Source: Sphingorhabdus sp.
Lineage (GTDB): Bacteria > Pseudomonadota > Alphaproteobacteria > Sphingomonadales > Sphingomonadaceae
Assembly: GCA_028279555.1 (NCBI GenBank)
Contig: JANQNO010000006.1
Coordinates: 278,864 to 342,863 of the forward strand
Reading direction: 5' to 3'
DNA: 64,000 bases
Both the position numbers and the translations under genes were made by a program. The notes beneath the pieces were generated by a model. It made no database searches, was not told the DNA's origin, and worked only from the letters and a program-made list of their open reading frames with translations. This document shows, piece by piece, positions 41,301 to 64,000 of the stretch. Each line of letters opens with the position of its first letter. The stretch's first letter is position 1.

Positions 41301-41866
41301 AGTCGTTCGCCGACCAGTGTCAGTTCCTGCGGCGCTGTCTCATCGAACCGGCCTTCGCTGTCATAAACACGCCAGACGAAGTACAGCCTGCCGGGTAAAT
41401 CGGCGTCGGCGACAAACTCGGCTTTGTTCGCATCATCGACCGCAACGATGCGAAGCGGTTCGCTATCAGGCGGGCTGCCGTCTGCGAAAACGCGCAGTTC
41501 GGATCGCACGACGAAAGCAGCATAGTTGGTGTAGCCGGCTATTTCCACAGCTTCGCCGCGCACGACGCTACGCTCTCCTTCAACTAGTCGCGCAGTGAGG
41601 ACCGGGTTGTTCAAATGATCGTCGGAACGAATCTCGATCCCGAACGGATCACGCTTCGATACTGGCTCACTTCCGGCAATCCGAATATCAAGACCGGAAT
41701 CGTTAGTATTTTGCTGCTCGGCCTGGGCCGATCGTCCAGCAGCCTGGGCTGAGCCGATGCTGGCACTTGCGATCGCAATCGCGGCCACGCCTGTCTTCAC
41801 CACAGCGGCGACTTTTCGGGACGCAGACCGATGATCGGTCTGGTGTTGGGAAAAGATGCTGGTCAT
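38330..41866 (-). CDS. Large outer-membrane beta-barrel protein partnered with the upstream DUF11-type repeat protein
   Basis: 1178 aa; signal peptide, Ig-like N-region, alternating aromatic/hydrophobic strands through the C-terminal half, terminal ...GLFLNLVGKF aromatic end. Confidence 0.65.
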   Translation of the reverse strand: MTSIFSQHQTDHRSASRKVAAVVKTGVAAIAIASASIGSAQAAGRSAQAEQQNTNDSGLDIRIAGSEPVSKRDPFGIEIRSDDHLNNPVLTARLVEGERSVVRGEAVEIAGYTNYAAFVVRSELRVFADGSPPDSEPLRIVAVDDANKAEFVADADLPGRLYFVWRVYDSEGRFDETAPQELTLVGERLAGDRPGSDVFALKDRDEARLRSIRLNKAVTVTVTGRANPETDEIRISGQLTPVDANGDFVWQQIFPRLSQNLTIQIERDGKTVLDSLRSISRPKDDWFVVGQGDVTLITSDGDGPAVEVSGDRLADGDYITSRAAYYLKGKFGDGWELTSSLDTGEVLLKDLFTNIDRKDPRQLLRRLDSSEFYPVYGDDSILIEDAPTQAGIYARLRHHDSSIVLGNFVANINQVELAQIDRGLFGGLISYKSQAITSFGERKLDLLAFASDPGTVPARDEFRGTGGSLYFLNRQDITIGSERLRIEVRDRETGLVLSSTELRPQEDYDIDYFQGRITLSRPLASTAADGAVVRQGSSAGNVPVLVARYEYSPDFGDLDGYTVAARGAGWIGDHVRLGVTSQKETTDTANQTLLAADMLLRYAAGTYIKAEVARTEGPGFGQSNSVDGGLNFINIASPAINGQSADAYRAEIAVNFAEITGKSGDRGKAGAYYEHFDAGFSSNAQLTFSDTERWGTHLDLPIGQSTRIKAEYDELSTAANGQTRSAVGEISQKFGGGVTANLGIRHDDKTPGQANNSFEDGSRTDAALQVNYKPVLANWSAHAFGQLTLENDAGRSDNNRAGVGVTAEVTERLSFTGEVSGGDGGLGADVQLNRRIGEGSEAYIGYSLLADRNDTGLERQNLFTRNSSGTLTVGARQRFSSSLSLYGENRISHGGNAPALVSSFGVNFDPTPQWSFSGSFENGRIDDVATGLFKRTAFTLGAGYSTDKLRIASNIEARFEDGNGRDQKVWLLRNSMNAKLTPDWHLLGRLNLAFADNDTANVRAAEFIDGIAGFAYRPVDNDRLNILGRVNYFRDLGPVGQITEGGQTNSPKQESTIISIDANYDLNKWITLGGKYGYRQGRVSLGRDSDTFVSSNTHLGILRADFHVVKNWDLLLEGRYLTNDTSGDDRVGALAAIYRHIGNNVKVGVGYSFTDFSDDLTDQSYTSKGLFLNLVGKF

Positions 41867-47800: not shown

Positions 47801-50800
47801 ACCTCGTCGCTCTCGGCTGAAGCAGTATTGGTCACTTGCCCGGAATCGGCATCTTCCACCGCGACCTGATAGCTACCGGTCAGCGTGCAGGTCGCGCCCG
47901 GGGCCACCGCCGCACATGTCTGGCTATCCGGCGTGATCAGAGGGTCGGAAACAACCACATTGTTCTGCGTGGTGTTGCCGCTATTGGTCGCCGTAATCGT
48001 ATAGGTCAGCGTATCACCCAGGGTGATCGTGCCGGAACCATCTTCATCGGCGTTCCCGCTTTGAACTTTGGCGATCGAGAGAGACGGCGCGCCAGCAATT
48101 GTTGTCACCGGCGGGTTGGGTGCAGCTGTCGGGCCCGCAACTTCATTGGTTACGACGGATACGGCATTGGTCACGCTGCCACTGTCCACATCCGCCTGCG
48201 TCAAAATATAGCTGGCATCGAAAATCCAGCTCTCGTTAATGTCGATCTCACCATCGCCATCGCCGTCCGTGGCCGCGCGCAATGTCGGACCGCTGGTGAG
48301 CGCAAGGACAGCGCCATCGCCATTGGTCAGCGTGTCCGTCAGAGTCACACCGCTGAGCGAAACATTGCCGCTGTTGTCGACAGTGATTTCCCAATCGACC
48401 CTATCGCCTGCCTGGGCAGGTACAGCAGCTGTAACATCGGCCTTTGAAATGGTGAGCGCGGGCGCAGCACCGATGGTTGTGGTGGCGCTGTCCGATGCGG
48501 GGGCCAGCTGATCGGTATCAAGCGTTGCGATATTGATGATGTCATTGCCATCATCGATGTTGGCCTGGGTGGCAGCATAGTTGGCCGCATAGGTCCAGCT
48601 TTCGCCCGGATCGATCTCGCCATCGCTGTCATCATCGCCGCCGGTGAATGTTGGCCCGGATGTCAGGGTGAGGCTGTTTCCGTCCTGAGATAGCGCATCG
48701 GTCAGCGCGGGCGTCGTCAGCGAAACATTGCCGCTATTAGTAACGGTGATCGTATAGCCAAGTGTCGCGGGCGCTGAAATACTGGCCGTATCGACGTCCT
48801 TGGTGATGGTAAATGCCGGTGTCGACAGGACAGGCGTGACCAGCGAGGTTGTGACAGGGGTGGAGAATTTGGTAGCCTGCACCGAAGCCGTATTGGAAAT
48901 CTGCCCGGCATCGGCATCGGCGAGCGAGACCTGATATGTGCCAGTCAACATGCAGCTTTCACCTGGTGCCACACTCGCACATGTCTGGCTGTTTGGCGTG
49001 ATCAGCGTATCGCTGACCACCACATTGTTAAGCGTCAGATTACCGTCATTGGTCGCGGTAACGGTATAGGTCAGCGTGTCGCCCAGGGTGACAGTACCGC
49101 TGCCATCCTCGTCGGCATTGGCGGTTACCGCCTTGGCAATGGCAAAAGAGGGATTCCCGGCCTGGGTCGGTGTGTTGAGGACCGGCGTGTTGATTGGTCC
49201 GGGCACTTCGGTTGACGTAACCGACCCGCTGTTATCGACAGAACCGGCATCTATCTCTGCCTGCGTGACCACGTAGGTTCCGCTCAGAACGCAGTCCGCG
49301 CCGGGCGCCAGCGTCGCGCAGGTCTGGCTATTGGGTGTGGTTTTCGCATCCGAAACAACCACATTGTTCAGCGTGATATTGCCGTTATTGGTGGCGGTAA
49401 CGGTGTAGGTCAGGGTATCGCCAACCGAGACATCGCTCGAGCCATCCTCATCGGCATTACTCGTCAGTGCTTTGGCGATTGCCAACGACGCATTCTGCGC
49501 AACATTGGTGACAACCGGGCCTGCGGTAACGGGCGTGGTCACTTCGTCGCTCTGGACCGAAGCGCTATTGCTGATCGCACCGGCATCCATATCGGATTGC
49601 TGAACACTGTAGCTTCCGGTGAGCACGCAGGTAGCGGCAGGTGCCAGCGTGGCGCATGTCTGGCTATTCGGCGTAATCAGCGGATCGGAAACGACAACAT
49701 TATTCTGCGTGACATTCCCGTCATTGGTGGCGGTAACGGTGTAAGTGAGCGTGTCGCCAAGGGTGATATCGCCTGAGTTGTCCTCGTCGGCATTCGACGC
49801 CAGTATCTTGGTCAAAGCCAGCGAGGGAGTGGCGTTCTGGGTTGGCGTTGTGACAGGCGGCGTTGTGGTCGGGCCGGGCACTTCGGTGGTCGTGACCGAG
49901 CCGGTGTTGCTGATCGATCCGGCATCGACATCGCCCTGCGTCACCACATAACTGCCGGTCAGTACGCAGCTGCCCGCAGGGGCAACGGACGCGCAGCTGT
50001 TGCTGGAAGGTGTGATCTTCGCATCGGAAACCACCATGTTCGAGAGCGTGACATCACCATCATTGCTGGCCGTTACCGTATAGGTCAGCGTATCTCCGAC
50101 AGAGATGTCGCCCGAAGAATCTTCATCAGCATTGCTGGTCAGCGATTTGGAAATCGATAGCGCCGGATTCTGCGCAACGCTGGTTGTGACCGGGCCAACC
50201 GCGGCCGGAGTCGTGACTTCATCGCTTTGCACCGAAGCCGTATTGGAAATCTGCCCGGCGTCGGCATCGGCCTGGGTAATCTGATAGCTGCCGCTCAGAA
50301 CGCAGTCTGCACTGGGCGCAAGCGTCGCGCAGGTCTGGCTGCTGGGTGTGATCAGCGCGTCGGAAACGACCACGCCATTCTGCGTGATGTTTCCGTCATT
50401 GGTCGCTGTCACCGTATAGGTAAGCGTATCACCTACCGAAACATCACCAGACGCGTCTTCATCGGCATTGCCCGTGACTGCTTTTGCAATGGCAAGCGAG
50501 GGGCTTGCCGCCTGCGTTGGCGTCACCAGGCTGTCGGTAACGGCGGTTGTAACTTCGTTTGATTGGGCAGAGCCTGTGTTGCTGATACTGCCGGTATCGA
50601 CATCCGACTGCGTCACGACGTAGGTGCCGGTGAGGACACAGTCGGCACCAGGCGATGTCTGCGTGCAGGTCTCACTGTTTGGCGTGATCATGGCATCGGA
50701 CACGACCACATCGGCTTGCGTGACATTGCCATCATTAGTGGCAGTAACGGTGTAGGTGAGTGTATCGCCGAGACTGACGTCGCCGGATGAATCCTCATCG

Positions 50801-52872
50801 GCATTGCTGGTCAGCAACTTGGAGATCGCCAGAGACGCAATTTGTGCGGTATTCGTAACAATCGGGCCAGCGGTGACCTGTGTGGTTACTTCATCGCTCT
50901 GGGTCGAAGCGGTATTGCTGATCGAACCTGTATCCATATCGGATTGCTGGACGCTGTAGCTTCCAGTGAGCACGCAGGTCGCACCGGGTGCGAGCGTCGC
51001 GCATGTTTCGCTATTGGGCGTGATCAGCGGATCGGAAACGACGACATTATTTTGCGAGACATTGCCGTCATTGGTCGCGGTGATGGTGTAGATCAGCGTA
51101 TCGCCCAGCGTGATATCGCCCGAGCTATCTTCATCAGCATTGCTGGTGAATGCCTTGCTCAGAGAAAGCGAAGGTGCGGCGTTAAATGTCGTGACCGTGG
51201 GGTCGGAATCATTGGTGCCATCATCATCCGATATATCCGTGACATCATCGCTGCCTGCGGTGCTGTCTCCGGCTGCCGTCGCGGAGTTGCTGATCGACCC
51301 TGCATCGACATCCGCCTGATCGAGCGTGTAGCTGCCGGTTATGGTTGTGGTATCACCGGGCGCTATAGGATCGACCAGCGTCCAGCTTGTTCCCGCAAAG
51401 CTGGCAATCGCCGCGTCGGTGGTGCTGGTGATGCTGTTCGCCCCGGCATGGGTCAGCGTATCAGCAACCTCGATATTGCCGATGGTGACATCGCCAATAT
51501 TTTCGACCGTGATCGACCAATCGACGATATCGCCCGCCGCTGTAGGCGTGGTTGCCGTCACGTCCGATTTGATCACCTCCAGGCCCGCCGTGCCAAACAG
51601 GCTGGCATCTGCCGAAAAAGTGCCGGTGATATTGTTGATTGTCTGATCCGAGGTGATCGAACCGGTATCCACCGTATTTGTAACGATGCTGGGATTGGCT
51701 GAGTCTATGGACAGTCCGGGAAATTCGACGGCCCGGAAATGGATACGCAGCGTGGCGCTATCCCCGACGCAGAGCTTTCCGACATTCCAGTTGCCGGTCG
51801 CGTCATCATAGCTGCCACCCGATGGTGAGGGATACATCGCCGAACCGGGAAATTGCGGATTGGCGCAGGTTGCGTCGCTGGTGAAATTTCCGCCCACAAC
51901 GCCGCCAACCAGTATCTCGTTCGACACAAATTCCAGCCCGGTGGGCAATATATCCGGTATCACTAGATTGGTGAGCGCGGAAGGCCCACCTATGTTGGAG
52001 ATCTGGATATCGAAAAAGGCTTCATCGCCGGGCTGTAGATTACCAGCATTGCTGATGCTCTTGACGATATCGAGCCTTTGAGTTTCGAGTGCGGTACCAA
52101 AACCGAAAGCTTCACGTGCATTGCCGGCAACTGCCGCCAGATTGAGGTTGATCGCGCCAACCGGTACATCTACCGACCAATCAAGGTTCAGATTTTGGAT
52201 AATACCATTCTGTTCAAATGTTGTCGGTTTTCCGACAACAACCGTGTTCAACTCTCCATCAGGATCATTGACGACCGGCAATTCGCCCGTATCGCCAGCA
52301 GGCCAGTCCCAATCGATAGAATAGGAGTCAAAAGCCGAAGCGGTATTGTTGAAGCCGCCATTCCCGCGGATCTGAAGCTTGTAGATGAGATCGGTATCAT
52401 TCATCACCACATTGAAACTGGAACTGGTGAAGGTAAAATTGGCGTTGCTGACTCCGGTCGGGTCAAAGTGGAAACCGATAAAGCCGGAATCCGGGTTAAA
52501 TCTGGTTATGTCGTAGGTTCGGTTCGCGGTTGCCGTGAACGACCAGGTGCCTTCAAAAGTGGTGGGATCGCCATTGGTATCGACGTTGCAACTGACAGTG
52601 TGCGTCGCCTGATTGCTGCCGGTTGTCGTGGTGCAGCCATTCGATCCCGGCGTATGCAGGAAGGTCTGCGCCGAAAGCTGCGCTGGCAAGATCAGCACCA
52701 GGACTGTCAAGACCAGCAGCACAAGGAACAGATAGGATGATAATAGCGACCGGCCTCGACCGGCGCCTTTCTTCCCATCGCGCGAGCGGACCGGGATGTG
52801 CCGGGCCGTTCTTACCGTGGGCCGCGCCGTATCTTTCCCGTCAATCAGTTCTGATTTTTTGACCTGTAACAA
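41863..52872 (-). CDS. Giant repeat surface protein: DUF11-type tandem repeats, SdrD-B-like domains, OmpA-like C-terminus
   Basis: 3669 aa; hydrophobic secretion segment; 23 repeats of ~112 aa counted by hand; SGIVFNDSNGD and GKVFEDRNGNGYQDDGEPGI SdrD-B-like motifs; weak OmpA-like SFEAGSDVLRQSVAARLPEVL C-terminus. Confidence 0.88.
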   Translation of the reverse strand: MLQVKKSELIDGKDTARPTVRTARHIPVRSRDGKKGAGRGRSLLSSYLFLVLLVLTVLVLILPAQLSAQTFLHTPGSNGCTTTTGSNQATHTVSCNVDTNGDPTTFEGTWSFTATANRTYDITRFNPDSGFIGFHFDPTGVSNANFTFTSSSFNVVMNDTDLIYKLQIRGNGGFNNTASAFDSYSIDWDWPAGDTGELPVVNDPDGELNTVVVGKPTTFEQNGIIQNLNLDWSVDVPVGAINLNLAAVAGNAREAFGFGTALETQRLDIVKSISNAGNLQPGDEAFFDIQISNIGGPSALTNLVIPDILPTGLEFVSNEILVGGVVGGNFTSDATCANPQFPGSAMYPSPSGGSYDDATGNWNVGKLCVGDSATLRIHFRAVEFPGLSIDSANPSIVTNTVDTGSITSDQTINNITGTFSADASLFGTAGLEVIKSDVTATTPTAAGDIVDWSITVENIGDVTIGNIEVADTLTHAGANSITSTTDAAIASFAGTSWTLVDPIAPGDTTTITGSYTLDQADVDAGSISNSATAAGDSTAGSDDVTDISDDDGTNDSDPTVTTFNAAPSLSLSKAFTSNADEDSSGDITLGDTLIYTITATNDGNVSQNNVVVSDPLITPNSETCATLAPGATCVLTGSYSVQQSDMDTGSISNTASTQSDEVTTQVTAGPIVTNTAQIASLAISKLLTSNADEDSSGDVSLGDTLTYTVTATNDGNVTQADVVVSDAMITPNSETCTQTSPGADCVLTGTYVVTQSDVDTGSISNTGSAQSNEVTTAVTDSLVTPTQAASPSLAIAKAVTGNADEDASGDVSVGDTLTYTVTATNDGNITQNGVVVSDALITPSSQTCATLAPSADCVLSGSYQITQADADAGQISNTASVQSDEVTTPAAVGPVTTSVAQNPALSISKSLTSNADEDSSGDISVGDTLTYTVTASNDGDVTLSNMVVSDAKITPSSNSCASVAPAGSCVLTGSYVVTQGDVDAGSISNTGSVTTTEVPGPTTTPPVTTPTQNATPSLALTKILASNADEDNSGDITLGDTLTYTVTATNDGNVTQNNVVVSDPLITPNSQTCATLAPAATCVLTGSYSVQQSDMDAGAISNSASVQSDEVTTPVTAGPVVTNVAQNASLAIAKALTSNADEDGSSDVSVGDTLTYTVTATNNGNITLNNVVVSDAKTTPNSQTCATLAPGADCVLSGTYVVTQAEIDAGSVDNSGSVTSTEVPGPINTPVLNTPTQAGNPSFAIAKAVTANADEDGSGTVTLGDTLTYTVTATNDGNLTLNNVVVSDTLITPNSQTCASVAPGESCMLTGTYQVSLADADAGQISNTASVQATKFSTPVTTSLVTPVLSTPAFTITKDVDTASISAPATLGYTITVTNSGNVSLTTPALTDALSQDGNSLTLTSGPTFTGGDDDSDGEIDPGESWTYAANYAATQANIDDGNDIINIATLDTDQLAPASDSATTTIGAAPALTISKADVTAAVPAQAGDRVDWEITVDNSGNVSLSGVTLTDTLTNGDGAVLALTSGPTLRAATDGDGDGEIDINESWIFDASYILTQADVDSGSVTNAVSVVTNEVAGPTAAPNPPVTTIAGAPSLSIAKVQSGNADEDGSGTITLGDTLTYTITATNSGNTTQNNVVVSDPLITPDSQTCAAVAPGATCTLTGSYQVAVEDADSGQVTNTASAESDEVTTPVTAGPITTNVAQNPALTVIKTDVTPAAPSAAGDTASWEISVANTGNVSLTGVSLNDVLTDGDGSVLALTSGPSLRVTTDGDGDGEIDPGENWIYDASYTLTQSDIDSGSITNSVTVSTTELPGPTPAPNPPVTTINAVPAFTIAKDVDTANITAPATLGYTIAVTNSGNVSLTNPALTDNLTQDGSALVLTSGPALNAGDTDSDGEIDPGETWSYSASYAANQADIDNGNDIINSATFSADQVTAASDNAVTSITINPALSITKSAPFNADEDGSGDISLGDTLTYIVTATNDGNVSLTNVEVTDSKTTPASQSCASVAPGATCVLTGTYTVTQADVDAGSISNSGSITSTEVPGPTTTPPVVTTTTPADSSLTLNKALTSNADEDGSATISLGDTLTYMITATNDGNVTQDNVVVTDSKTTPGSRTCASVAPGATCILTGVYQVSQDDVDTGNISNTGSVTSTLITTPVTTNPVITDIPQSAVLSLAKLLTSNADEDSSGDISLGDTLTYTITATNDGNVTQSNVVVADPKITPDSQICATLAPGATCVLTGTYQVSLADADAGEVSNTASVQSDEITTPIATQPVITAVSTNAALSLVKSSPVNADEDSSGDISVGDTLTYTVTATNDGNVSLTDVVVSDAKIMPSSRTCATIAPGETCVLTGTYSVSQTDVDGGVISNSASVTSVEVPGPTITPPVTTITQEKMPSIALAKILANNADGDGSGDISVGDVLTYRVTATNDGNVTLNDVTVGDQKITPNTENCATLAPGASCVLTGNYTVSQADVDAGSVSNSATVTSPDIADPVTTPPVVTATQKGDPSLALAKQLTSNADEDGSGDISLGDTLTYTVIATNDGNVTLTGVVVSDDKIDPSSISCASLAPAQTCVLTGSYQVTQADIDGGSISNTASVTSTEVPGPTTTPPVVTPTQTGDPSLTLDKVLASNADEDTSGDVSAGDTLTYTVTATNDGNVTLSDVTVLDDKISPDSKTCAALAPGATCVLTGSYTVSQTDIDSGSISNTASATSPSLPQPVTVPPLTTVTQDRDPSLALTKILASNADEDTSGDITLGDTLTYTVTATNDGNVTQHNVLVSDNRITPDSQTCASVAPGAMCVLSGTYRVTLEDADAGEVRNSASAQSDEVATPVTAGPLVTAVESTPMLTLVKSDPVNADEDGSGDISLGDTLTYTITATNEGNASLTGVTITDDKITPSSTSCPALVPAEACVLSGSYQVSQADIDAGSVTNSASVISDDIPDPVTTPPVVTATQPARRALSLDKSLAGNADGDGSGDISLDDLLTYRIAATNNGNVTLNNVVVSDNKTMPSSQTCATLAPGAACVLTGSYQVTLTDTDAGEVRNIANAAADMIADPVRAELILEVARAGSISGIVFNDSNGDQIAQDDEQRLPGWIVEIIREENSQSAASASSSANTGNAEGQAQIIAHTTTNTDGYYEFTGLRLGSYQLRFRNPVNDVLYGDISGLELTGGNLTVDQNLPIDPSGVFYDAVTRAPVQGVVATLVNRDGNPLPDVCFIDISQQNQLSDGSGFYRFDIVPGAASSCPVGETEYRIVFDAPGNFSDNPSTVIAVQDGPLNPPAGVGPFLVALQSTAPAAGEDTTYYLSFVLGSGDRDIINNHIPLDPFSDRGPLMVTKSSIKRSVSVGELVPYTITVRNNENVQRAGVDVIDVIPPGFKYVQGSAVVAGVASEPLQASRELRWEDQIIPANDSVEYSLTMVVGAGVTGGDRVNIGFARASIDGAEVSNRGQAVVSILPSAIFDCAEIIGKVFEDRNGNGYQDDGEPGIANARLATVNGQLITTDQYGRYHITCAAVPDARIGSNYVLKLDKRSLPAGYEVTTENPRAIRLTRGKVSKLNFGVKAAGHVAVDISDASFEAGSDVLRQSVAARLPEVLKGAEANNPIVRIAYQMSEAESVDLAKARTAAASKAILAIFAGNGGTEPIIEVDISRQRPEAPEGDDQ
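43642..51582 (-). repeat. Protein-coding tandem repeat array (23 DUF11-like units, mostly ~336 bp)
   Basis: Units aligned by hand on the consensus SLxLxKxLTSNADEDxSGDISLGDTLTYTVTATNDGNVTxNNVVVSDxxITPxSxTCATLAPGATCVLTGSYxVTQADVDAGSISNTAS. Confidence 0.9.
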
Positions 52873-53477: not shown

Positions 53478-54434
53478 TCAGTACGATTTGCGCTGAACAC
53501 CGCCCGGTCCCAAGGGTTTGCAAGTGTAGGTTCCACTTTCAGAAAAATGCCGTAACAATTTGCCTGCCGGACTCCGAACATAGAACATGAAGCCCATTGT
53601 TTTCTTGGGTGGCGAGCCCGTGCCAAAATTGGCGTCTGACCAGTCGACAGGAAAATCGGCTATATACTGGACTTCATCGCCCGGCGACGCTTTCACCTCC
53701 TGATGCCCGCCGGTCCAATTCCGTCCGCGAAAATGCACTTGCCCCGAGAAAGGAGCTACCCAGGTGGCGTTGACCGCCAAGCGGATTTTGGTGGGGCAGA
53801 TATAGCCATTCATCACCTGGTCGCCATGCTGGCCTGAGAGAAACTGGAAAGGCCTGAACTTCACAACAGGTTGAGGGTTGCTGCGGCGCGGTTTGCCAGA
53901 GGCGGAAGTTTCGCCTTCCTCAACCTTCCAGGTGGTTTCGACATTGCCGCCCTTTGCTGCCTGAGCCGGGCGGATGTTCTTATATGTAATGCCGAGCGAT
54001 TGCAGAGGGCTGCCATCATCGCCCAGCTTTTTCATATCCCTCCGCTTGCCGGTGACAACGCCTTCGAGAAGGTATCTTTTTTCCGTCCCATCCTTCCTCA
54101 TCACCACCAGCGCCGAGCGGCGTTTGGCCTTGGCAAGGCGGCCATCTTTCAGGGGTTTTCTGTAAACAATGGTAACGGTCCCGGGGCCGGACAGAGATTT
54201 TGGAAAAGCCGATTGCGTCAGGCCCCAGCTCCAGGACAGGACGTCAATTTCATCCGTATGATCGTCGCTTTTGTTTTGCGTGCCTGAAAATTTCACATAG
54301 CCCTCTGCCAAAGCGGGCGGCGCAGCGGCAACGGAGCCGAAAAAGCAAAGAGCCGCCAGCGCAAAAAACGCTTTCTTGCTACTGCCCCTGAATATTGCCG
54401 CCGGCCTGATCGATACTGCTTCGAACTTCCACAT
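53478..54434 (-). CDS. Secreted protein: Hcp-like domain plus shared C-terminal 'CPTxxRL...CKP' domain
   Basis: Signal peptide; VKFSGTQNKSDDHTDEIDVLSWSWGLTQS resembles T6SS Hcp (DEIxVLSWSWG); C-terminal ICPTKIRLAVNATWVAPFSGQVHFRGRNW shared with two neighbours. Confidence 0.65.
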   Translation of the reverse strand: MWKFEAVSIRPAAIFRGSSKKAFFALAALCFFGSVAAAPPALAEGYVKFSGTQNKSDDHTDEIDVLSWSWGLTQSAFPKSLSGPGTVTIVYRKPLKDGRLAKAKRRSALVVMRKDGTEKRYLLEGVVTGKRRDMKKLGDDGSPLQSLGITYKNIRPAQAAKGGNVETTWKVEEGETSASGKPRRSNPQPVVKFRPFQFLSGQHGDQVMNGYICPTKIRLAVNATWVAPFSGQVHFRGRNWTGGHQEVKASPGDEVQYIADFPVDWSDANFGTGSPPKKTMGFMFYVRSPAGKLLRHFSESGTYTCKPLGPGGVQRKSY

Positions 54435-54516
54435 TTCATTTCTCCTCGAAATAGCTGCTTCAAAAAAGTTGTTATGCATCTGTCGCGCCGATTGATTCAG
54501 CGTGCCTATGGGCAGG

Positions 54517-55119
54517 TCACTCTCGCTGCGCTCCTGATGGCATCGGGCTGCAAATGACCCTCACCGTCAACCTCTGCGGATGTGCCTCCCTTACGCGCGT
54601 TTTCGTGCTGTAGCCGCTCCTCGGCCAGCGCCTTTTCTCGCGAACATCCCAGACGGCAATGGCGGAAACGGTGTAAGCGGAATGGCGCATCAATGTGCCG
54701 CCAACCCTGAGAAATTGCCTGCGCGCATTGCCGCCGCGGCGTTTGATCTCATCATTGCAAAGGCGAACGGGCGAAAGCTTCATCGACGGATTGACCCACG
54801 CGGCGACGTCCATGACCGGAACGCTGTAGGTATCGACCCGGCTGCCCGTGAACTGACCGCTATCCAGACTGACCAATGTTTCGCCAATGCGCAGCAATGC
54901 ATCGCGTTGGCGCACCATGTTTTTGGGTCGTTCGATGGTTACGCCCAGCTTATAGCTGATCAGCCGGTTGGAAACGCGCGTATATTCGGTGCCATTTCCT
55001 ACCACGATTATTGACGGAACCGGCGAGTATATATTGATTTCAACCGTCTCGGCCTGTGCAATGCCAGGCGCGAAGACGGCGGCGCAGATACAGCAGAAGA
55101 TATTGCGAGGAGAGCGCAT
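54517..55119 (-). CDS. Secreted LCND-domain protein
   Basis: Signal peptide MRSPRNIFCCICAAVFAPGIAQA; PVMDVAAWVNPSMKLSPVRLCNDEIKRRGGNARRQFLRVGGTLMRHSAYTVSAIAVW shared with neighbours. Confidence 0.7.
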   Translation of the reverse strand: MRSPRNIFCCICAAVFAPGIAQAETVEINIYSPVPSIIVVGNGTEYTRVSNRLISYKLGVTIERPKNMVRQRDALLRIGETLVSLDSGQFTGSRVDTYSVPVMDVAAWVNPSMKLSPVRLCNDEIKRRGGNARRQFLRVGGTLMRHSAYTVSAIAVWDVREKRRWPRSGYSTKTRVREAHPQRLTVRVICSPMPSGAQRE

Positions 55120-55142
55120 CTCAATCGATCCGAAACGCCCGT

Positions 55143-55589
55143 CTAACCCGGCGGCAAGGCATCGTCGGGATCCCAGGTCGAAATGATGATGATGCAGCCG
55201 CTTCCCACACCCGAGCAAACAGTGTTCTTGCCAACCTTGGTTGCTTTCATCGTGACAGTGAGATCGCGCGCCGGACGCCCAGGGACAGCGAAGTTATTGG
55301 TCGAGATGATTTCGGTCAGCGATGCACGATCGATCAGGCATCTCTTCTTTTGCCCATTGCGGCTTTGGACCCGCGTTATCTTGAACGCGCCCTTGCCAGG
55401 AACCGACAGCTTGTATTTGCCGCGTTTCTGCTCGATCGCTTTCGAGCTGATATAGCGGCTGTCGGGCGCGCTTCTCACCTCCTTTTTCGCCTCGGAGGCA
55501 GTCACGGCCATGCTCGCTAGGGCGATGCAAGCGAAGGCAGAACCGGCGGCAAATTTGCGGCTTGTCAGCGACCGAAATTTGATGGGCAT
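55143..55589 (-). CDS. Small secreted protein of unknown family within the LCND operon
   Basis: Signal peptide MPIKFRSLTSRKFAAGSAFACIALASMAVTASEA; cysteines near the C-terminus. Confidence 0.65.
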   Translation of the reverse strand: MPIKFRSLTSRKFAAGSAFACIALASMAVTASEAKKEVRSAPDSRYISSKAIEQKRGKYKLSVPGKGAFKITRVQSRNGQKKRCLIDRASLTEIISTNNFAVPGRPARDLTVTMKATKVGKNTVCSGVGSGCIIIISTWDPDDALPPG

Positions 55590-55644
55590 TCTATTGCTCC
55601 TTTGTCGCATAATGATCGATATCGATAGGAAGATGTGCAGCGCT

Positions 55645-56673
55645 TCAGGGTTTCCTGCATTTGATGGTGACCTTTTTCTCGATCACCTGTTTCTCGACAT
55701 TGCGCTGATTGAGCACATGCAGTTTTACCGTCAGACGTTTCGTCTTGTTTTTCCGTCCGCCCAATTGCCACTGCAATGGATAGCTGGCGACAGCCCCCGT
55801 TCTGCTGAATGCATTCAGCTTGATTGGTGTTTTCTTTGATTTCCAGCCTTTGACTGAGAAATATACATCGCCGGTAAATTCGCGGCGCCCTTTGATCTGA
55901 CTTTCCAGCCGGAGCCTCGCAGGACACAGGAAATTCCCTGCCGCCAGAAATCTCTTCGGTGTAGATAGGATTTTTGCGCCGATGGGTTTCTTCCTGGCCT
56001 GCTTTTCCATGACCGCGCCCATATCAACACGCGTCGTGCTCGTTTCGGTCGCTTTCTTCGCCTTGTTGCCGATCGGATTGCATTTGACGTAAACCGTGGT
56101 CATGATCTTGGGAGAGTCGAAGGTCCGGTAATAGGTGGGATCGAAGCGACCTACCCTGTTTTCCTTCAGCAACCATTTTGCGCTGGCTCTAACTTCATAG
56201 GCGGAATGTCTAAGAATGGTGCCACCATTTTTCAGGAATTTCTTTCGCGCGCTTCCTTTCTGATAGCTGAGTTCATCGTTGCACAATTTTATCGGCGACA
56301 CGCGCTCATTCACAGCTCTCCATGCGCGAAGATCCATGACTGGCGTGGTAATTTTGTGAACCTCATGCGCCAGAACATTGTCGACATCGGCATAGTGATT
56401 TTCGACAAATATCTTGCCGGTCGCCCTTTGCCCTGTTTTCGGTTTTCTGCCCTTGAGAATAAAGAAGAAATCGAGCTGTTTGGTGACCACGGTATCGTAG
56501 CCGCCGCCATGGCCGTCCACCACAATCACGGGCGTTTTATACCTGTCGAAGCCTGCTTTTTCGACGGGCGCTTTAACCTGTGTAACCGGGGGCAGTTCCG
56601 GAAGGCCAGCCATAACCGCCACCGGCAAGGAGGCTCCCGCCAAGGCCAATACTCCGCATACTAGATATCGCAT
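55645..56673 (-). CDS. Secreted LCND-domain protein with C-terminal CP[TA]xxRL domain
   Basis: TTPVMDLRAWRAVNERVSPIKLCNDELSYQKGSARKKFLKNGGTILRHSAYEVRASAKW; FLCPARLRLESQIKGRREFTGDVYF...VTIKCRKP. Confidence 0.72.
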   Translation of the reverse strand: MRYLVCGVLALAGASLPVAVMAGLPELPPVTQVKAPVEKAGFDRYKTPVIVVDGHGGGYDTVVTKQLDFFFILKGRKPKTGQRATGKIFVENHYADVDNVLAHEVHKITTPVMDLRAWRAVNERVSPIKLCNDELSYQKGSARKKFLKNGGTILRHSAYEVRASAKWLLKENRVGRFDPTYYRTFDSPKIMTTVYVKCNPIGNKAKKATETSTTRVDMGAVMEKQARKKPIGAKILSTPKRFLAAGNFLCPARLRLESQIKGRREFTGDVYFSVKGWKSKKTPIKLNAFSRTGAVASYPLQWQLGGRKNKTKRLTVKLHVLNQRNVEKQVIEKKVTIKCRKP

Positions 56674-56687
56674 CGACTACCTCCCAG

Positions 56688-57776
56688 TCATCCGGTGATT
56701 TCGCCAGCCGCCTGATCGCCGTGGCCGCGCCGCGGTTTCTTGCAGACGACCTTGATCCGTTTCGGCGCGCTTTTGATGAGCTTGCCGTCGGCTCCGGCGA
56801 CATTGAATTTGAAATCCAGCGTCTGGCGCGACGGTTTGTCGCTGCTGGCAGCCGACAGGCTATGCAGCCCGCTGCGCGCCCAGTTCATGTCATAGGTCGC
56901 GGTGACATAACGGCCCTTCGCGCTCTGGAATTTGATCTTTGTCTTGCGCGAGAGCCAGCGCGGGCCGACGAATATGCTGTCGCCGGAAAATGGCCGGATG
57001 ACATCGATGCGGCCAGACAGGCGCAGTTGCGTGGGGCAGATCCACTTGCCCACGCGCTTAACACTCATCGGCGTGATCTTCAGCGTGAGATTGCTGATGG
57101 TGGGTTTGCGCGATTGGCCTTGGGGAAACCGCGAAGGATCAAGAGGGGTCGTTGTCGTTGTGGTCGCTTTGCCAGCAAAATGCCCAGTAGGACGGCATCT
57201 CACAAAAGCTGGGACATAATAGCTATCGTCCCATGTTCTGGTGTCGGTGTTAGCCCATCCGGCTTTAACTTCCCATCGTGACGTTGCCCTTAAAGTGTAA
57301 GCATTATCAAGCTTGATCAATTCACCTTTGTTCAGGAATTTCTTTCTGGCTTTACCACGTAGAGTGCTGGCCCTGTCGTTGCATAGCTTCGAAGGTGAGA
57401 CGCGCGGAGGAATGTAATTGAAGGTTGTTTTTTCAACCCTCACTGACCTCGGACGATTGATTCTAACGCTGTGAAATTTACCGTTACTGAGTAGCCGAAT
57501 ATACGTTTCAAAATATTTTTTGTCCCTTTTTGGCGTGCTTCCTTTAACGCGATACCAAATTTTAAGGCTATTATTCAGCACCTTGCCATATTCACCTCGA
57601 GCAACACCCTGAACTTCGATGACCGGGTAAATGTCAGTTGGCTCGACGCCGCTCCCAGCCTTTATGACATAGGCGGAAATGTCTACCACCGGTTCCCCAG
57701 CCAGCGCCGGTCCGGCTGTTGACCAAGCAGCAAACGGCACCATGGTAGCGAGCAGAATTTTCCTTGTTGGTGACAT
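56688..57776 (-). CDS. Secreted LCND-domain protein with C-terminal CP[TA]xxRL domain
   Basis: RVSPSKLCNDRASTLRGKARKKFLNKGELIKLDNAYTLRATSRW; WICPTQLRLSGRIDVIRPFSGDSIFVGPRW...IKVVCKKP. Confidence 0.72.
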   Translation of the reverse strand: MSPTRKILLATMVPFAAWSTAGPALAGEPVVDISAYVIKAGSGVEPTDIYPVIEVQGVARGEYGKVLNNSLKIWYRVKGSTPKRDKKYFETYIRLLSNGKFHSVRINRPRSVRVEKTTFNYIPPRVSPSKLCNDRASTLRGKARKKFLNKGELIKLDNAYTLRATSRWEVKAGWANTDTRTWDDSYYVPAFVRCRPTGHFAGKATTTTTTPLDPSRFPQGQSRKPTISNLTLKITPMSVKRVGKWICPTQLRLSGRIDVIRPFSGDSIFVGPRWLSRKTKIKFQSAKGRYVTATYDMNWARSGLHSLSAASSDKPSRQTLDFKFNVAGADGKLIKSAPKRIKVVCKKPRRGHGDQAAGEITG

Positions 57777-57805
57777 ATGTTTGTTCTCCTGATTTCGGTG
57801 CCTGC

Positions 57806-58441
57806 TCAACTAACGCGGCTGCGGTTGCGCGAGAGAGGGCGGCAGTGGATGTTGACACCGACGGTCACCGGTTTGGATTGCCATGTCCGGTCATATCGCT
57901 TGCCCCACCGGCCCTTCATCCGCCACACGGCGGTGGCGTGAATCTGATAGGCGGAATGACGGAACATCTTGCGTCCGGTCCTGAAAAAGCGTTTGCGGTC
58001 ATTACCTTGCCGGCGCTCGATCTCGTCATTGCACAGTCGAACGGGCGTCAGGCGCAGATTCGGGTCGCTCCACGCCCGAAGATCATGGACCGGAAAGGTC
58101 AGGCGGCGAAGATGCCAGCCATATCTCGAAAAAGCAGGCTTGCCGCGCGCCGTCATGAAGAATGCTGCCGGGTCGCGCCCTTCCATCCACACGAAACCGT
58201 GCTTCATATGAATCATCTTGTCGGGTTCGCGGACTCGCAATGGAATGTCATAGACCAGCTCGCGCGTCGTCACACGGTTGTAACGCGTACCGCTGCCCTC
58301 CACGACGATCGTCGGGAAAGCACCGGGGTTGCGAATATCGGTATAATCGATTTCCAGAACATCGGCAGAAGCCCTGGAAGGCATCAAAGCCGCTACAAAC
58401 AACAAAGTAGCAAAGATATGCAATTTGGTAGTGCTTTTCAT
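57806..58441 (-). CDS. Secreted LCND-domain protein
   Basis: Signal peptide; TFPVHDLRAWSDPNLRLTPVRLCNDEIERRQGNDRKRFFRTGRKMFRHSAYQIHATAVW. Confidence 0.72.
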   Translation of the reverse strand: MKSTTKLHIFATLLFVAALMPSRASADVLEIDYTDIRNPGAFPTIVVEGSGTRYNRVTTRELVYDIPLRVREPDKMIHMKHGFVWMEGRDPAAFFMTARGKPAFSRYGWHLRRLTFPVHDLRAWSDPNLRLTPVRLCNDEIERRQGNDRKRFFRTGRKMFRHSAYQIHATAVWRMKGRWGKRYDRTWQSKPVTVGVNIHCRPLSRNRSRVS

Positions 58442-58646
58442 TGCCTCACTCTCTTGGCTTTGCGGCAGTCGAAACCGCCATTGGCAGCTCAGCGGCGCTG
58501 GCTGCGCGATCTTTTCAAATTTCGAGAGGTGATATTTACGGGCCCGAGGGGTGTTTTTCGTCGGGGCGCACACCCAATTTTCGCGGCAGGCATACCTAAA
58601 TTTGGCGTGCCGGAGGTTTGAGAAGTTCGCTGACTTCGCCTAATTT

Positions 58647-61295
58647 ATGCACCGAAGGGATTCAAAAGCGGTGCTGGCGGAAAGAGAAGATCAACAGAAA
58701 GAACTGCTCAAACTGGCCGCCAAGGCCAAAAGCGGCAGCGGTCATATTGTCACGCTTGGCGGCGAAGCCGGCATTGGGAAATCCTCTCTTTTGCGAGAGT
58801 TTTGCCAGCAGTTGGAGGAGGATATTCCATCCGTTTGGGGCATGTGTGACGCGCTTTTTACGCCGCGTCCCCTTGGCCCGGTATATGATATCGCACAGCT
58901 CATGCCGGGATTTGGTTCCGACTGGAGGAATGACAGCGGCACGGAGCTTTTCTCCCAGATTCTTGCACATCTATCGAATCTTACCCAGCCTCTGGTTCTC
59001 ATTCTGGAGGATGTACATTGGGCCGATATCGGCACGCTCGATTTCATCCGCTATCTCGGGCGGCGCATCTCGCTATGCCCGGTGCTGCTGATTATTTCCT
59101 TTCGTGACGACGAGCTGGGCAGGGATCATCCGCTAAACCGGGTATTGGGTGAGCTGCCAAGCGACCGGGTGGAAAGAATAGAATTGCTGCCCCTATCTGC
59201 AAAGGCTGTCGCTCGGATCAGCGGCATCGGAGAAGCAGATGCCCACAAACTATGGGCAGTGACGGGCGGCAACCCGTTTTTCGTATCCGAAATTCTGGCC
59301 AGCGGTATACAACGCGGCATCGAGGTGCCGGCCTCGGTTCAAGATGCTGTCCAGAGCCGTCTGTCGCGCCTTTCCGCCGAACATCGTGACTTTCTGATAT
59401 CGCTGAGCATCATTCCCGTCCCAATCAATCCGGAGCTTCACTGCCAATGGATGAGCAAATCCGAACATTGGCTGCAACAGTCATTGGTTGCGGGAATATT
59501 GGTCGAAACAGGCGATGGAAGTCTGCGCTTTCGCCACGAACTGGCCCGGCTGGCAACGAGCAGGCGTTGCTCCTCGATTGAGCTCAAGTCCCTGCATAAA
59601 GAGCGGCTCGATGTCATGCTTCAAGCGCCGGACAAATACAGCTACGCGGAATTGATGCATCATTCGCAAGGGGCAACCGATGCCGCCTCTGTTCTGCGCT
59701 TTGCGCCGCTCGCAGCCGAAGATGCCGCCAAGCTGGGCGCACACCGCGAAGCGGCAAGTCATCTGGAGACCGCTCTAAAATATGTGGATGAGGCACCTCC
59801 GCAAGATGCAGCGGAGTTATATGATGGGTGGGCATATGAGTCGGGTATTTCCAACCGGATCGATGATCGGGTTATCGAGGCCCGGCGTCACGCGCTGACA
59901 TTGTGGAGAGCTCTAGACCGATCCGACAAAGTCGCCGAGGGTCTTCGTTCGCTTTCCCGTTTACACTGGTATCGCGGCGAAGCCGCACAAGCTGGCCGCT
60001 ATCTCGATGAGTCGATAAACCTGTTTGAACAGCTGGGTGATGAGGACAAGCTGGCCCTAGCCTACTCGATGCGGTCGCAGATGTTCATGTTGAACAGCCA
60101 GATGGCCGAAGCCATCGATTGGGGCAAGCGCGCAATTGCAAAGTCTGCGGGTTCGACATCTTTCGAAGCGAAGGTGCATGCCCTCAACAATATCGGCACG
60201 GCCAAGCTTTTCCTCGGTCAGGAGGAGGGCATCGGAGATTTGCAGGAAAGTCTGCAAATCGCACTCGAGCACAACCTGCACGAGGACACCGCCCGGGTTT
60301 TCACCAACCTGTCCGAACATGCGATCGATATCCGCAAGCTCGATTTGGCGGAAAAGACGTTGGCCGAGGGGATCACGTTCGACACTGAACATGATCTCGA
60401 TTCCTGGCTTTATTACCTGCTTGGCCGCAAGGCGCAGCTGCGGCTCGAGCAGGGACGCCTGCAGGAAGCTGCGGAGATAGCATCCGGCGTAATCGCAACG
60501 GAAGGGCAAACGCTCCTGATGAAACTGCCATCGCGCATCATGCTTGGCCGTGCGCAGATCAGGATGGGAGATAGCCAAGCCGGAGAAACGCTGGAGAATG
60601 CTCGCGCAGATGCTCTGGCTACTGGAGAGCTGCAATATCAGATTCCGGTCCTGCTGAGTCTTTTGGAAAAGGCCTGGCTTTCGATGTCATCTTCAACGGC
60701 AAGCCAAACATTAAGGACGCTGGCAAAAATAGAACCGCGCCTGTTCACCAAGTGGAGTCTTGCGGAGTATGCCTTTTGGGCGACGCTTCTGAATGCGCCG
60801 CTGCCTGACGGGGTGAAGGCATCATCGACCGCTTTCGAAGCAGCCGTGCAAGGCAATATGAAAATGGCAGCGGAGGATTTCTCCGCGCTGGGAGCTGACC
60901 ATCTTGCCAATATTTGCCTTGGTTTATGCGGCGAACCGAACCTCGTTTCCAGTGCCCTGGCGGCGCTGCATGCGCAAGGCGCGAGTGCCGCAACAGCGCG
61001 ATTGATAAAGGAAGCCGAGGCGCGCGGGATCCATCGCGACGAAATAAAAGTCCCACGCGGCCCCTACAAGGCCGCTCGGTCCAACCCCTATGGCCTTACT
61101 GCCAAGGAGCTATCGGTGCTCGTCCTATTGTCACAAGGACAGAGCAACGCCGAAATTGCCGAAAAGCTATCGCGTTCGCAGCGGACGATCGAGCATCATG
61201 TTTCGGCTATTTTGCACAAGTTGGAAGCAGAAAACCGGATGGCCGTAATCCTACGTCTGCAAAAGGAACCTTGGCTGCTGCCGGATTCAGCCTAA
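58647..61295 (+). CDS. LuxR-family transcriptional regulator with N-terminal AAA/NTPase and TPR-like region
   Basis: Walker A GGEAGIGKSSLLREF; C-terminal GerE-type HTH LTAKELSVLVLLSQGQSNAEIAEKLSRSQRTIEHHVSAILHKL. Confidence 0.92.
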   Translation: MHRRDSKAVLAEREDQQKELLKLAAKAKSGSGHIVTLGGEAGIGKSSLLREFCQQLEEDIPSVWGMCDALFTPRPLGPVYDIAQLMPGFGSDWRNDSGTELFSQILAHLSNLTQPLVLILEDVHWADIGTLDFIRYLGRRISLCPVLLIISFRDDELGRDHPLNRVLGELPSDRVERIELLPLSAKAVARISGIGEADAHKLWAVTGGNPFFVSEILASGIQRGIEVPASVQDAVQSRLSRLSAEHRDFLISLSIIPVPINPELHCQWMSKSEHWLQQSLVAGILVETGDGSLRFRHELARLATSRRCSSIELKSLHKERLDVMLQAPDKYSYAELMHHSQGATDAASVLRFAPLAAEDAAKLGAHREAASHLETALKYVDEAPPQDAAELYDGWAYESGISNRIDDRVIEARRHALTLWRALDRSDKVAEGLRSLSRLHWYRGEAAQAGRYLDESINLFEQLGDEDKLALAYSMRSQMFMLNSQMAEAIDWGKRAIAKSAGSTSFEAKVHALNNIGTAKLFLGQEEGIGDLQESLQIALEHNLHEDTARVFTNLSEHAIDIRKLDLAEKTLAEGITFDTEHDLDSWLYYLLGRKAQLRLEQGRLQEAAEIASGVIATEGQTLLMKLPSRIMLGRAQIRMGDSQAGETLENARADALATGELQYQIPVLLSLLEKAWLSMSSSTASQTLRTLAKIEPRLFTKWSLAEYAFWATLLNAPLPDGVKASSTAFEAAVQGNMKMAAEDFSALGADHLANICLGLCGEPNLVSSALAALHAQGASAATARLIKEAEARGIHRDEIKVPRGPYKAARSNPYGLTAKELSVLVLLSQGQSNAEIAEKLSRSQRTIEHHVSAILHKLEAENRMAVILRLQKEPWLLPDSA

Positions 61296-61511: not shown

Positions 61512-64000
61512 ATGCCAATTCGCCGGACAATCATAAAGAAGCCAACCATCTTGCATTCCGTCAGTGCCCTGGCGCTTGCGATCGGGAGTTTTGCCGCGGC
61601 ATCCGGCGCAAATGCGCAGCAACGCACACCCGGCGTCAGCGCGGAATGCCCGATCGTAGCGGGCGTTGCGACCTGTTCGGGTGATATCGGCGGCGGGATC
61701 AACACCACACCGGGCGATCCAGGCTTTGACACCATCATCATCGAGAACCCAACAGGCCCGATAGCGCCTCCGGGCTTTTTCGGGGTCGGCGTGGTCAAGG
61801 ACGACCGGGACATTACGATCAACATTCAAGACGGTGTCGAAATCAATGTGTTCGACGATCCGCTCATTGCGGGGCCAGCCCAAGGCGTCATTGCGATTGT
61901 CGACAATGGCTTTGACCTGACCATCGATAGCGGCGCGAATATCACCGCAGACGGGAATGGCTCGGCGGGTATCGGCCTGGAAGCAAATACGTTGGGGGGC
62001 GGCCATGTCAGCGTCACCAACCGGGGCGATATCGACGCCTTTACCAGCGGCGAGACAGCGATTGCGCTGATGGCGCGGGCCTTTGGCGGCAATGGCAATA
62101 TCACGATCGACAATAGCGGCACGCTAACCGCCACTTCCAATGGCGTGGGTGAGCGCACCACCATTACCGCAGGCATATTCGCCTTCAGCGATCTGGGCGG
62201 CAACGTGATCGATGTCACCAATAATGGCGACATCTCCGTCACCACCGGCGCGGCGAGCTTCGACAGCGATTTCAACGGCGTGGCGGGCGCAATCGTCACC
62301 AATGTGTTCGGCGATGCCTCGACGACAAATATCGTCAATAATGGCACGCTTGCCGCCACCGGCCCTGCGACCAGCGGCATTGTCGGCTTTGCCCAGAATA
62401 ACAGCATGACGGACAGTTCGACCGTGATGATCGACAATAATGGCGCGATCACCGTAAATGGCATTGGTGGCTACGGCATTCTCGCGCAAAGCAGCGGCAC
62501 CAGCGTCAATCTGGATGTCGATAACGGCGCGCTCATCCACATGGTCGCCCCCGGCGGCACGGCCACCGGGATTTTCAATCTCAACCAGGCGCAGAATGCG
62601 ACCTCCTCCATCGTCAATACCGGCGATATGACTGGCAGCGGTCTTAACCTGCGCGGACTGGGCATTTCCAGCTTTGGCGCACCAGCAGGCGGCACTTACA
62701 ATTTCAGCGTAACCAATAGCGGCAATTTCACCTTCGATTCTGGCGCACCGATCGGCATTTCGGCTTTTTCAACGATGGAAGACGATGTCACCGTCACCAT
62801 CACCAATAGCGGCAATTTTGATTTCAGCTCCTCCACCGGCGCTCTTTCCCGGGGTATCAGCGCCACTTTCGACTTTGTCGATGACACCGCAATGGGTGCC
62901 GACGGCACCAGCAATGTCACCATCAACAATAGCGGCAACATCATGATGGGCGCGGGCAATGCGATCTTTGCGGTTGCCGATCAGGTGAATCTGATCAACA
63001 CCGGCAATCTCAGCACTACCGGGGATTTTTCCGATGTCGTGCGGGTCGAAGGGATCGATGCGGATTCTGACGTCGACGTTACGATTGGCGGTGATGCCAT
63101 CGCAAGCGGTGCGGATTCCGATGCCATCAATATCACCAATGCTGGCTCGACCACTGTCACTGTGAGTAATGGCGCGCTGGTTTCGAGCGGCACAGGCGAT
63201 GCCTTTGCCATCCATCTGCTCGGTGCACAGGCCAATATGGCGGGAACCGATGAAATCACCGGCGAGGTTACCGGGTCGGTGGGCAGGCTCGAACAGAAAT
63301 TCTTCGAATATGACGCCGGGTGTCTGACAGGCTGCACGCTCACCGACATCTTTGCCCCGATTGCACCGGGCAATCCGGATGCGAGCGCGTTCGACGATGT
63401 TGTCAATGTCGACAATGCGACGGTGGAATCGATGATGGGTGCTGGCGCGATAGACAGCTCCGGCTCGCTGCTTGTCAACGGGATGAACGGAGCGGTCATC
63501 CGTTCGGGCAATAATGGCGCGCCGGTGATCTCCGCCGTCGGCGCGCTCGGCATCGTCGCCAGCGATACGACCTTCAGCAGCATGGGCGACGACGCGCCAC
63601 TCTTCAGCATTGCGGAGATGACCGCCGGCGACGGTACCGCCGTTTATGTCGAACTGACCGATGTCGATGCCTCCACCGCTGGGAGCAACAGCGATGCGAT
63701 CGTTCTCAGTGGCGGCACCGGCAACAGCGTCGCCACGCTGTTCCTGGATGCCAGCGATCCGATGGCGCCGACCAGCATTTCGACCGTTGGCGACAACTCG
63801 CGCGCCATCGTCTTCGACGCGCCCGGATCGTCGACATTTGCCGGATCCATTTCGAACAGCCTGATTACGACGCTCGGCGATAATGCCGATGCTGTCTATC
63901 TCAATGTCGGCGATGACGGTTATCTGATCGCCGAATTGCTCAACACGACCATTGAAACCTCAGGCGATGACAGCGACGCGTTCGATCTGCTGGCCGGCAA
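61512..64000 (+). CDS. Autotransporter-type beta-helical surface protein, 3' truncated by window end
   Basis: Hand translation from ATG 61512: MPIRRTIIKKPTILHSVSALALAIGSFAAASGANAQQ..., then many N[NS]SGxI / TNSGNF rungs; open through 64000; not in the supplied ORF list. Confidence 0.8.
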   Translation, partial: MPIRRTIIKKPTILHSVSALALAIGSFAAASGANAQQRTPGVSAECPIVAGVATCSGDIGGGINTTPGDPGFDTIIIENPTGPIAPPGFFGVGVVKDDRDITINIQDGVEINVFDDPLIAGPAQGVIAIVDNGFDLTIDSGANITADGNGSAGIGLEANTLGGGHVSVTNRGDIDAFTSGETAIALMARAFGGNGNITIDNSGTLTATSNGVGERTTITAGIFAFSDLGGNVIDVTNNGDISVTTGAASFDSDFNGVAGAIVTNVFGDASTTNIVNNGTLAATGPATSGIVGFAQNNSMTDSSTVMIDNNGAITVNGIGGYGILAQSSGTSVNLDVDNGALIHMVAPGGTATGIFNLNQAQNATSSIVNTGDMTGSGLNLRGLGISSFGAPAGGTYNFSVTNSGNFTFDSGAPIGISAFSTMEDDVTVTITNSGNFDFSSSTGALSRGISATFDFVDDTAMGADGTSNVTINNSGNIMMGAGNAIFAVADQVNLINTGNLSTTGDFSDVVRVEGIDADSDVDVTIGGDAIASGADSDAINITNAGSTTVTVSNGALVSSGTGDAFAIHLLGAQANMAGTDEITGEVTGSVGRLEQKFFEYDAGCLTGCTLTDIFAPIAPGNPDASAFDDVVNVDNATVESMMGAGAIDSSGSLLVNGMNGAVIRSGNNGAPVISAVGALGIVASDTTFSSMGDDAPLFSIAEMTAGDGTAVYVELTDVDASTAGSNSDAIVLSGGTGNSVATLFLDASDPMAPTSISTVGDNSRAIVFDAPGSSTFAGSISNSLITTLGDNADAVYLNVGDDGYLIAELLNTTIETSGDDSDAFDLLAG

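Follow-up and report, generated by a model that had tools for sequence, protein, structure and literature searches.

MalT of E. coli is a STAND activator that responds to an inducer (PMC4381067), with an ATPase domain followed by helical repeats and a LuxR/GerE DNA-binding domain. RbmA is a scaffold of the V. cholerae biofilm matrix, a secreted protein composed of two fibronectin type III (FnIII) domains (PMC5605196). Features reminiscent of both are found in Sphingorhabdus sp., a marine-type alphaproteobacterium whose genome is 99.9% complete. Here, a six-gene operon (g1 to g6) lies on the minus strand between positions 53478 and 58441 of a 64-kb stretch of DNA (contig JANQNO010000006.1, positions 278,864 to 342,863; hereafter the window), divergent from the gene for a large regulator. 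Sets of secreted beta-sandwich proteins governed by a MalT-like regulator are of a known kind; new are two uncatalogued domains, X and Y, and a predicted operator.

Two uncatalogued domains

BLASTP and hidden Markov model (HMM) profiles place domain X in g2, g4, g5 and g6, and domain Y in g1, g4 and g5. Within the operon, BLASTP gives E values of 6e-32 (g4/g5), 2e-32 (g2/g6), 2e-26 (g4/g6) and 2e-21 (g2/g4). The Y domain links g1 to g5 (8e-7) and, in g1, matches other homologues with values down to about 4e-10. The window copies of X and Y match the profiles at 1e-39 to 1e-65, having themselves helped to build them. The original prediction, made from the sequence alone, had counted X in four proteins and Y in three; both counts hold, and the shared motifs are statistically solid. 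It could name no Pfam family for either domain, and none has come to light. No HMM match to a characterised family appeared, no family in Pfam, NCBIfam or PHROG being significant for X or Y, and X-Y matched nothing among the PDB sequences. A relationship between X and Y themselves is unsupported (HHalign probability 0.2%). On the evidence of their sequences, X and Y are true homologous domains that are absent from the catalogues, and represent two new domains of secreted proteins.

The motif PVxD[LV]xAW occurs in the X domains of g2, g4 and g6. It had been proposed as PVxDLRAW in three of the four; the number stands, but g2 reads PVMDVAAW and the motif must be broadened. Each domain had also been thought to begin and end with a cysteine. 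This is true of Y, which is flanked by its two cysteines, whereas the first cysteine of X is that of the LCND motif in mid-domain and only the second lies at the domain end. In the mature operon proteins, those with X only have exactly two cysteines and the X-Y proteins exactly four, and one disulfide is probable in each X and in each Y. The homologues are basic throughout, with predicted isoelectric points (pI) of 9.2 to 11.1, and the conserved residues of X are scattered through the structural domain and form no obvious catalytic set. An RRTNP-type motif is repeated in the proline-rich linkers of the X-Y proteins (loci L007, 6657-7730; L008, 2567-5616; L019, 8735-9769; L032, 8940-10097) and is seen in the g1 linker; it also occurs fourfold at the C-terminus of an unrelated 683-aa gene product (L044, 10621-12672) encoded divergently from the regulator of genome G075.

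AlphaFold2 models the mature g4 protein as two beta-sandwiches with a mean pLDDT of 77, from an input of eight sequences drawn from the window and L007 only. X alone, in g2, is modelled with a pLDDT of 88 and a pTM of 0.77, and here a helical hairpin, starting at the LCND motif, is placed between strands of the sheet. The modelling that had been recommended thus gives two sandwiches, with X lacking a confident PDB match. X is accordingly modelled as a beta-sandwich with an inserted helical hairpin, and Y as an immunoglobulin (Ig)/FnIII-like beta-sandwich.

The regulator and its predicted operator

In Pfam searches the regulator matches AAA_16 (E 5e-20), TPR_12 in three stretches and, at residues 817-869, GerE (E 3.8e-14). 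It therefore has a STAND/AAA ATPase, a helical-repeat sensor and a C-terminal LuxR helix-turn-helix (HTH), the order seen in MalT. It is like MalT too in adjoining its predicted target operon and in having a direct repeat as its predicted DNA target. It differs in scoring only about 35 bits against the MalT model, best at the HTH, and in that its predicted targets are genes for secreted beta-sandwich proteins, not sugar uptake. Publications on regulators of this type and on secreted proteins resembling Hcp offered nothing direct. The proposal that the divergent gene encodes a dedicated regulator is strengthened by its association with X-Y genes in five loci (the window, L007, L008, L019 and L032), which have a rare operator-like repeat in common. 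At E values of 1e-60 or below the regulator was found in 5 of 251 family genomes, reaching 61% identity in G075 and G193 only.

Comparison of the divergent intergenic regions yields the consensus AWWTTRGGK-N13-AWWTTRGGK, usually followed by N7-CCGR, with a period of exactly 22 bp. The MalT half-site is probably different from AWWTTRGGK. In the window the half-sites occupy 58572-58602, at a distance of 130 bp from the start codon (ATG) of g6 and 44 bp from that of the regulator. The repeat is conserved at the X-Y promoters of L007, L008, L018, L019 and L032 and at the L044 regulator. No regulator-linked X-Y promoter lacks it, and its presence upstream of a solitary X-Y gene in G193 (L018) predicts regulation in trans. 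In the genome of the window the exact repeat has a single copy. Among 321 family genomes the extended pattern has four sites, all of them in G000, G075 and G193, the three genomes with a close orthologue of the regulator, while a reversed control pattern has no match in the same set; in a class-wide sample of 298 genomes it was found at two already known sites only.

The motif was defined on sphingomonad loci, and at that stage there were exact matches at two Sinorhizobium loci and a near match at one of Roseibium. Nine further plasmid-borne homologues of the regulator were then scored out of 18 as an out-of-sample test, with five shuffles per sequence, preserving base composition alone, as the control; the best shuffle reached 14-15. 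S. terangae scored 18, and R. sullae, Neorhizobium and R. algicola each scored 17, the R. algicola site being weak as independent evidence because it is near-identical to a Roseibium site (L035) already seen. R. leguminosarum has a variant scoring 16. The S. meliloti site, at the same position and with CCGA, scores 15, which is not clearly above the shuffles by score alone. Homologues from Paracoccus, Terrarubrum and Deinococcus were negative in this scoring. In Neorhizobium the site is some 1 kb upstream of the regulator, before another gene; the others are directly downstream. Versions of the repeat stand beside most of the regulator homologues of rhizobia and Roseibium, which are 39-44% identical to the window regulator. 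Very probably, the 22-bp-period repeat is the operator of this regulator, which is inferred to bind it and to activate rather than repress.

On Sinorhizobium, Rhizobium and Roseibium plasmids, the repeat or a close version is found just downstream of the regulator homologues (L034, L035, L036, L037, L070, L073, L074 and L076), and what follows is a PF00144 serine hydrolase gene in some cases and, in others, genes for a small secreted protein plus a cytochrome c. The Sinorhizobium homologues were considered as a source of function and set aside; with a small secreted protein and cytochrome c as neighbours, no function transfers.

Operon layout, relatives and domain exchange

The features of the locus are collected in Table 1. 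As originally predicted, there are six successive open reading frames (ORFs) on the minus strand, and, counted from the most likely ATG starts, the gaps from g6 to g1 are 29, 14, 55, 23 and 82 bp. All six products begin, as judged by eye, with a hydrophobic, signal-peptide-like N-terminus, and they are predicted to be exported by Sec. Counts of sigma-70 promoters and terminators in the region were no higher than the chance level.

Table 1. Features of the X-Y locus in the window
Feature	Position	Strand	Description
g1	53478..54434	-	Hcp-like domain, approximately 53946-54296, PRRSNP linker and Y, 53514-53819 (Y profile E 2.5e-39); signal-like N-terminus
g2	54517..55119	-	X only, 54541-55023 (X profile); signal-like N-terminus; 72% identical orthologue in L007; AlphaFold2 model
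g3	55143..55589	-	Small protein; signal-like N-terminus; CxGxGxGC...WDPDD motif; homologues in the L008 and L032 X-Y loci
g4	55645..56673	-	X, 56071-56541, then Y, 55648-55959 (BLASTP, profiles); signal-like N-terminus; AlphaFold2 model
g5	56688..57776	-	X, 57186-57632, then Y, 56733-57071; signal-like N-terminus; base-composition mosaic
g6	57806..58441	-	X only, 57833-58321 (BLASTP, profiles); signal-like N-terminus; first gene of the operon
Predicted operator	58561..58602	-	AATTTAGGT-N13-AAATTGGGT-N7-CCGA; direct repeat, 22-bp period
Divergent regulator	58647..61295	+	882 aa; AAA_16, TPR, GerE (LuxR); MalT/STAND-like (Pfam)

Directly downstream of the operon, and separated from g1 by a gap of 605 bp, the minus strand encodes a repeat-rich secreted protein of 3669 aa (41863-52872) and then a 1178-aa ORF (38330-41866); neither was seen beside X-Y genes in the relatives examined. 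On the other side, an ORF for a repeat-rich secreted protein (61512-63998, plus strand) runs off the end of the contig, which is also the end of the window.

The search for relatives of the LCND proteins, which had been suggested, revealed rare X-Y loci, often with the regulator adjoining. Within the genus, such loci were found in 2 of 37 genomes; X was present in 5 of 401 sampled family genomes and Y in 5 of 301 sampled order genomes. X-Y is the usual architecture among these relatives and occurs in some 2% of the family genomes sampled. An uncultured Erythrobacter (L007) has the regulator followed by two X-Y genes and an X gene; L008 (G012) has the regulator, X-Y, a g3-like gene and X-Y; and L032 (G515) has the regulator, a single-domain Hcp-like protein, two X-Y genes and a g3-like gene. 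In G193 an X-Y gene (L019) is convergent with the regulator and the solitary gene of L018 lies some 450 kb away. G138 and G552 have distant, solitary X-Y genes. G397 and G345 combine X with another C-terminal module in a single protein, and a PF00144 serine hydrolase gene adjoins; tandems of this kind are located at 6598-8942 of L020 and 2945-5297 of L022. G912, from another alphaproteobacterial family, encodes a 667-aa secreted protein with one Y domain (L055, 6339-8342, minus strand; E 1e-5), in which an N-terminus resembling X and another stretch resembling Y can be made out by eye. Plasmid carriage of X-Y was not found for g5, nor was viral carriage, and g2 has no confirmed viral relative. 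The product of g3, initially regarded as an orphan, is related, at 40% and 31% identity, to proteins of two other X-Y loci (L008 and L032), and is for this reason better regarded as a recurring, conserved partner.

Duplication and shuffling of domains had been proposed to underlie the operon. The X domain of the L018 protein is 55% identical to that of g4 and only 30% to that of g5, while its Y domain is 82% identical to that of g5 and only 27% to that of g4. These identities mark the L018 protein as an X-Y chimera and demonstrate that domains have been exchanged between genes. Shuffling is further supported by g5, a mosaic in which the GC content at third codon positions is 0.46 in the X part and 0.80 in the Y part. 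Local duplication is also supported, albeit as an old rather than a recent process: L007 has a one-to-one orthologue of g2 (72% identical) and another of g4 (61%), so some of the duplications are older than the divergence of the species. Because resolution is poor deep in the domain trees, no order of events is claimed.

Possible functions of the secreted proteins

Taken as a whole, the locus has about an even chance of being a self-contained, STAND-regulated operon for secreted, modular scaffold proteins that bind polymers. The MalT-like factor, with its AAA ATPase, TPR sensor and LuxR-type DNA-binding domain, would sense a signal, bind AWWTTRGGK half-sites one 22-bp period apart and switch on the divergent operon. 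The products would leave via Sec, five of the six being built from X, Y, an Hcp-like barrel and proline/arginine-rich linkers between domains, with g3 as an additional small secreted partner. Strongly basic (predicted pI about 10-11), they would most likely bind anionic polymers of the envelope or matrix as a non-catalytic scaffold, loosely in the manner of RbmA. That they form such a scaffold at the surface or in the matrix is a guess, at best an even bet and perhaps appreciably less; it is the best fit for a set that is secreted, basic, apparently non-catalytic, modular and under one sensor. The resemblance to RbmA lies in predicted secretion and in the two predicted beta-sandwich domains, RbmA being the top PDB match when Foldseek is run with the g4 model (E 4e-6). 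X-Y proteins differ from it in having no PDB sequence match, in the probable disulfide of each domain and in the helical hairpin inserted in X.

Several observations weigh against this interpretation. The matches to RbmA have TM scores of 0.23-0.31 with a root-mean-square deviation of about 20 A, and so support the tandem-sandwich character only and not a common function; for X by itself, the PDB offers no match with E < 0.03 and the viral models no confident one. Within the operon, neither a locus for polysaccharide synthesis nor a dedicated secretion machine came to light. In G075 a like regulator and operator stand beside a hydrolase and the unrelated 683-aa protein, showing that the regulator is not bound to X-Y everywhere. 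Basic pI and secretion would also suit antagonistic proteins or enzyme partners, and in L020 the X gene, with its different C-terminal module, is translationally coupled to a PF00144 gene through a 4-bp overlap, the two families being neighbours in L022 also.

A rival idea is that the X-Y proteins lack catalytic activity themselves and serve secreted PF00144 serine hydrolases (the beta-lactamase/DD-peptidase/esterase fold) as substrate-binding or regulatory subunits, the substrates belonging to the envelope or the environment. The idea stays alive because PF00144 neighbours recur: the hydrolases of L020 and L022 are 94% identical, in L007 and L044 a PF00144 gene comes after that of the regulator, with 79% identity between the two hydrolases, and Roseibium shows the same order, the hydrolase gene lying behind the repeat. 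The PF00144 loci of Roseibium, G075 and L007 resemble the window in combining the regulator family and the repeat near a gene for a secreted protein, but no X-Y genes were seen next to the regulator of Roseibium or of G075. Moreover, the window operon has no PF00144 gene, with weak paralogues only elsewhere in the genome, the L020 and L007 hydrolases are distant (23-24% identity), and the neighbours of X-Y in L008, L018, L019 and L032, not all of which were scanned, include no recognised hydrolase. On balance a partnership of this sort seems unlikely. Contact-independent antagonism by a bacteriocin-like set of small, cationic secreted proteins with swapped domains, present in few strains, would account for the patchy, rare distribution (5 of 401 family and 2 of 37 genus genomes) as well as for the domain shuffling and high pI; yet there is no immunity-type gene and no recognised toxin domain, and X is without an obvious set of catalytic residues, making this improbable. 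A defence system was rejected, there being no PADLOC match apart from the HTH of the regulator.

The sandwich domains and weak Foldseek matches to chaperone-usher proteins might suggest subunits of a pilus or fimbria made of Ig-like domains. The operon has neither usher nor chaperone, however, and X and Y are modelled, with fair confidence, as full multi-strand sandwiches that do not seem to lack a strand as subunits of donor-strand exchange do, leaving little probability for such an assembly. A type VI secretion system (T6SS) enters the discussion through g1, for which the original prediction proposed an Hcp-Y architecture. Of this, Y is firm and the Hcp likeness weak: the N-terminal half scores 18.4 bits against the Pfam T6SS_HCP model, where the cut-off is 23.5, although its best PDB sequence match is Hcp1 (E 5e-4), and the stand-alone gene of L032 has a very weak Hcp match. 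The Hcp of T6SS is cytoplasmic. By contrast g1 has a signal-like N-terminus and is fused to Y, and neither the VipB sheath nor an above-threshold Hcp (PF05638) was found in its genome, in searches for which the E. coli controls were positive. A T6SS origin of g1 was rejected on these grounds, and the notion that g1 and its neighbours are T6SS parts or effectors is scarcely credible.

A more ambitious proposal, which we hold only tentatively and consider rather doubtful, is that X represents a new disulfide-stapled beta-sandwich topology with an LCN hairpin, and that X, Y and the Hcp-like barrels serve as exchangeable modules in an extracellular assembly not described before, re-assorted by recombination under one STAND sensor and one operator.

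Two uncatalogued secreted domains, with their cognate regulator and predicted operator, make up an extracellular system that is open to experiment through one promoter, one site and one operon. The predicted operator may furthermore provide a DNA target for the large and poorly characterised LuxR-type regulators of rhizobia and Roseibium.

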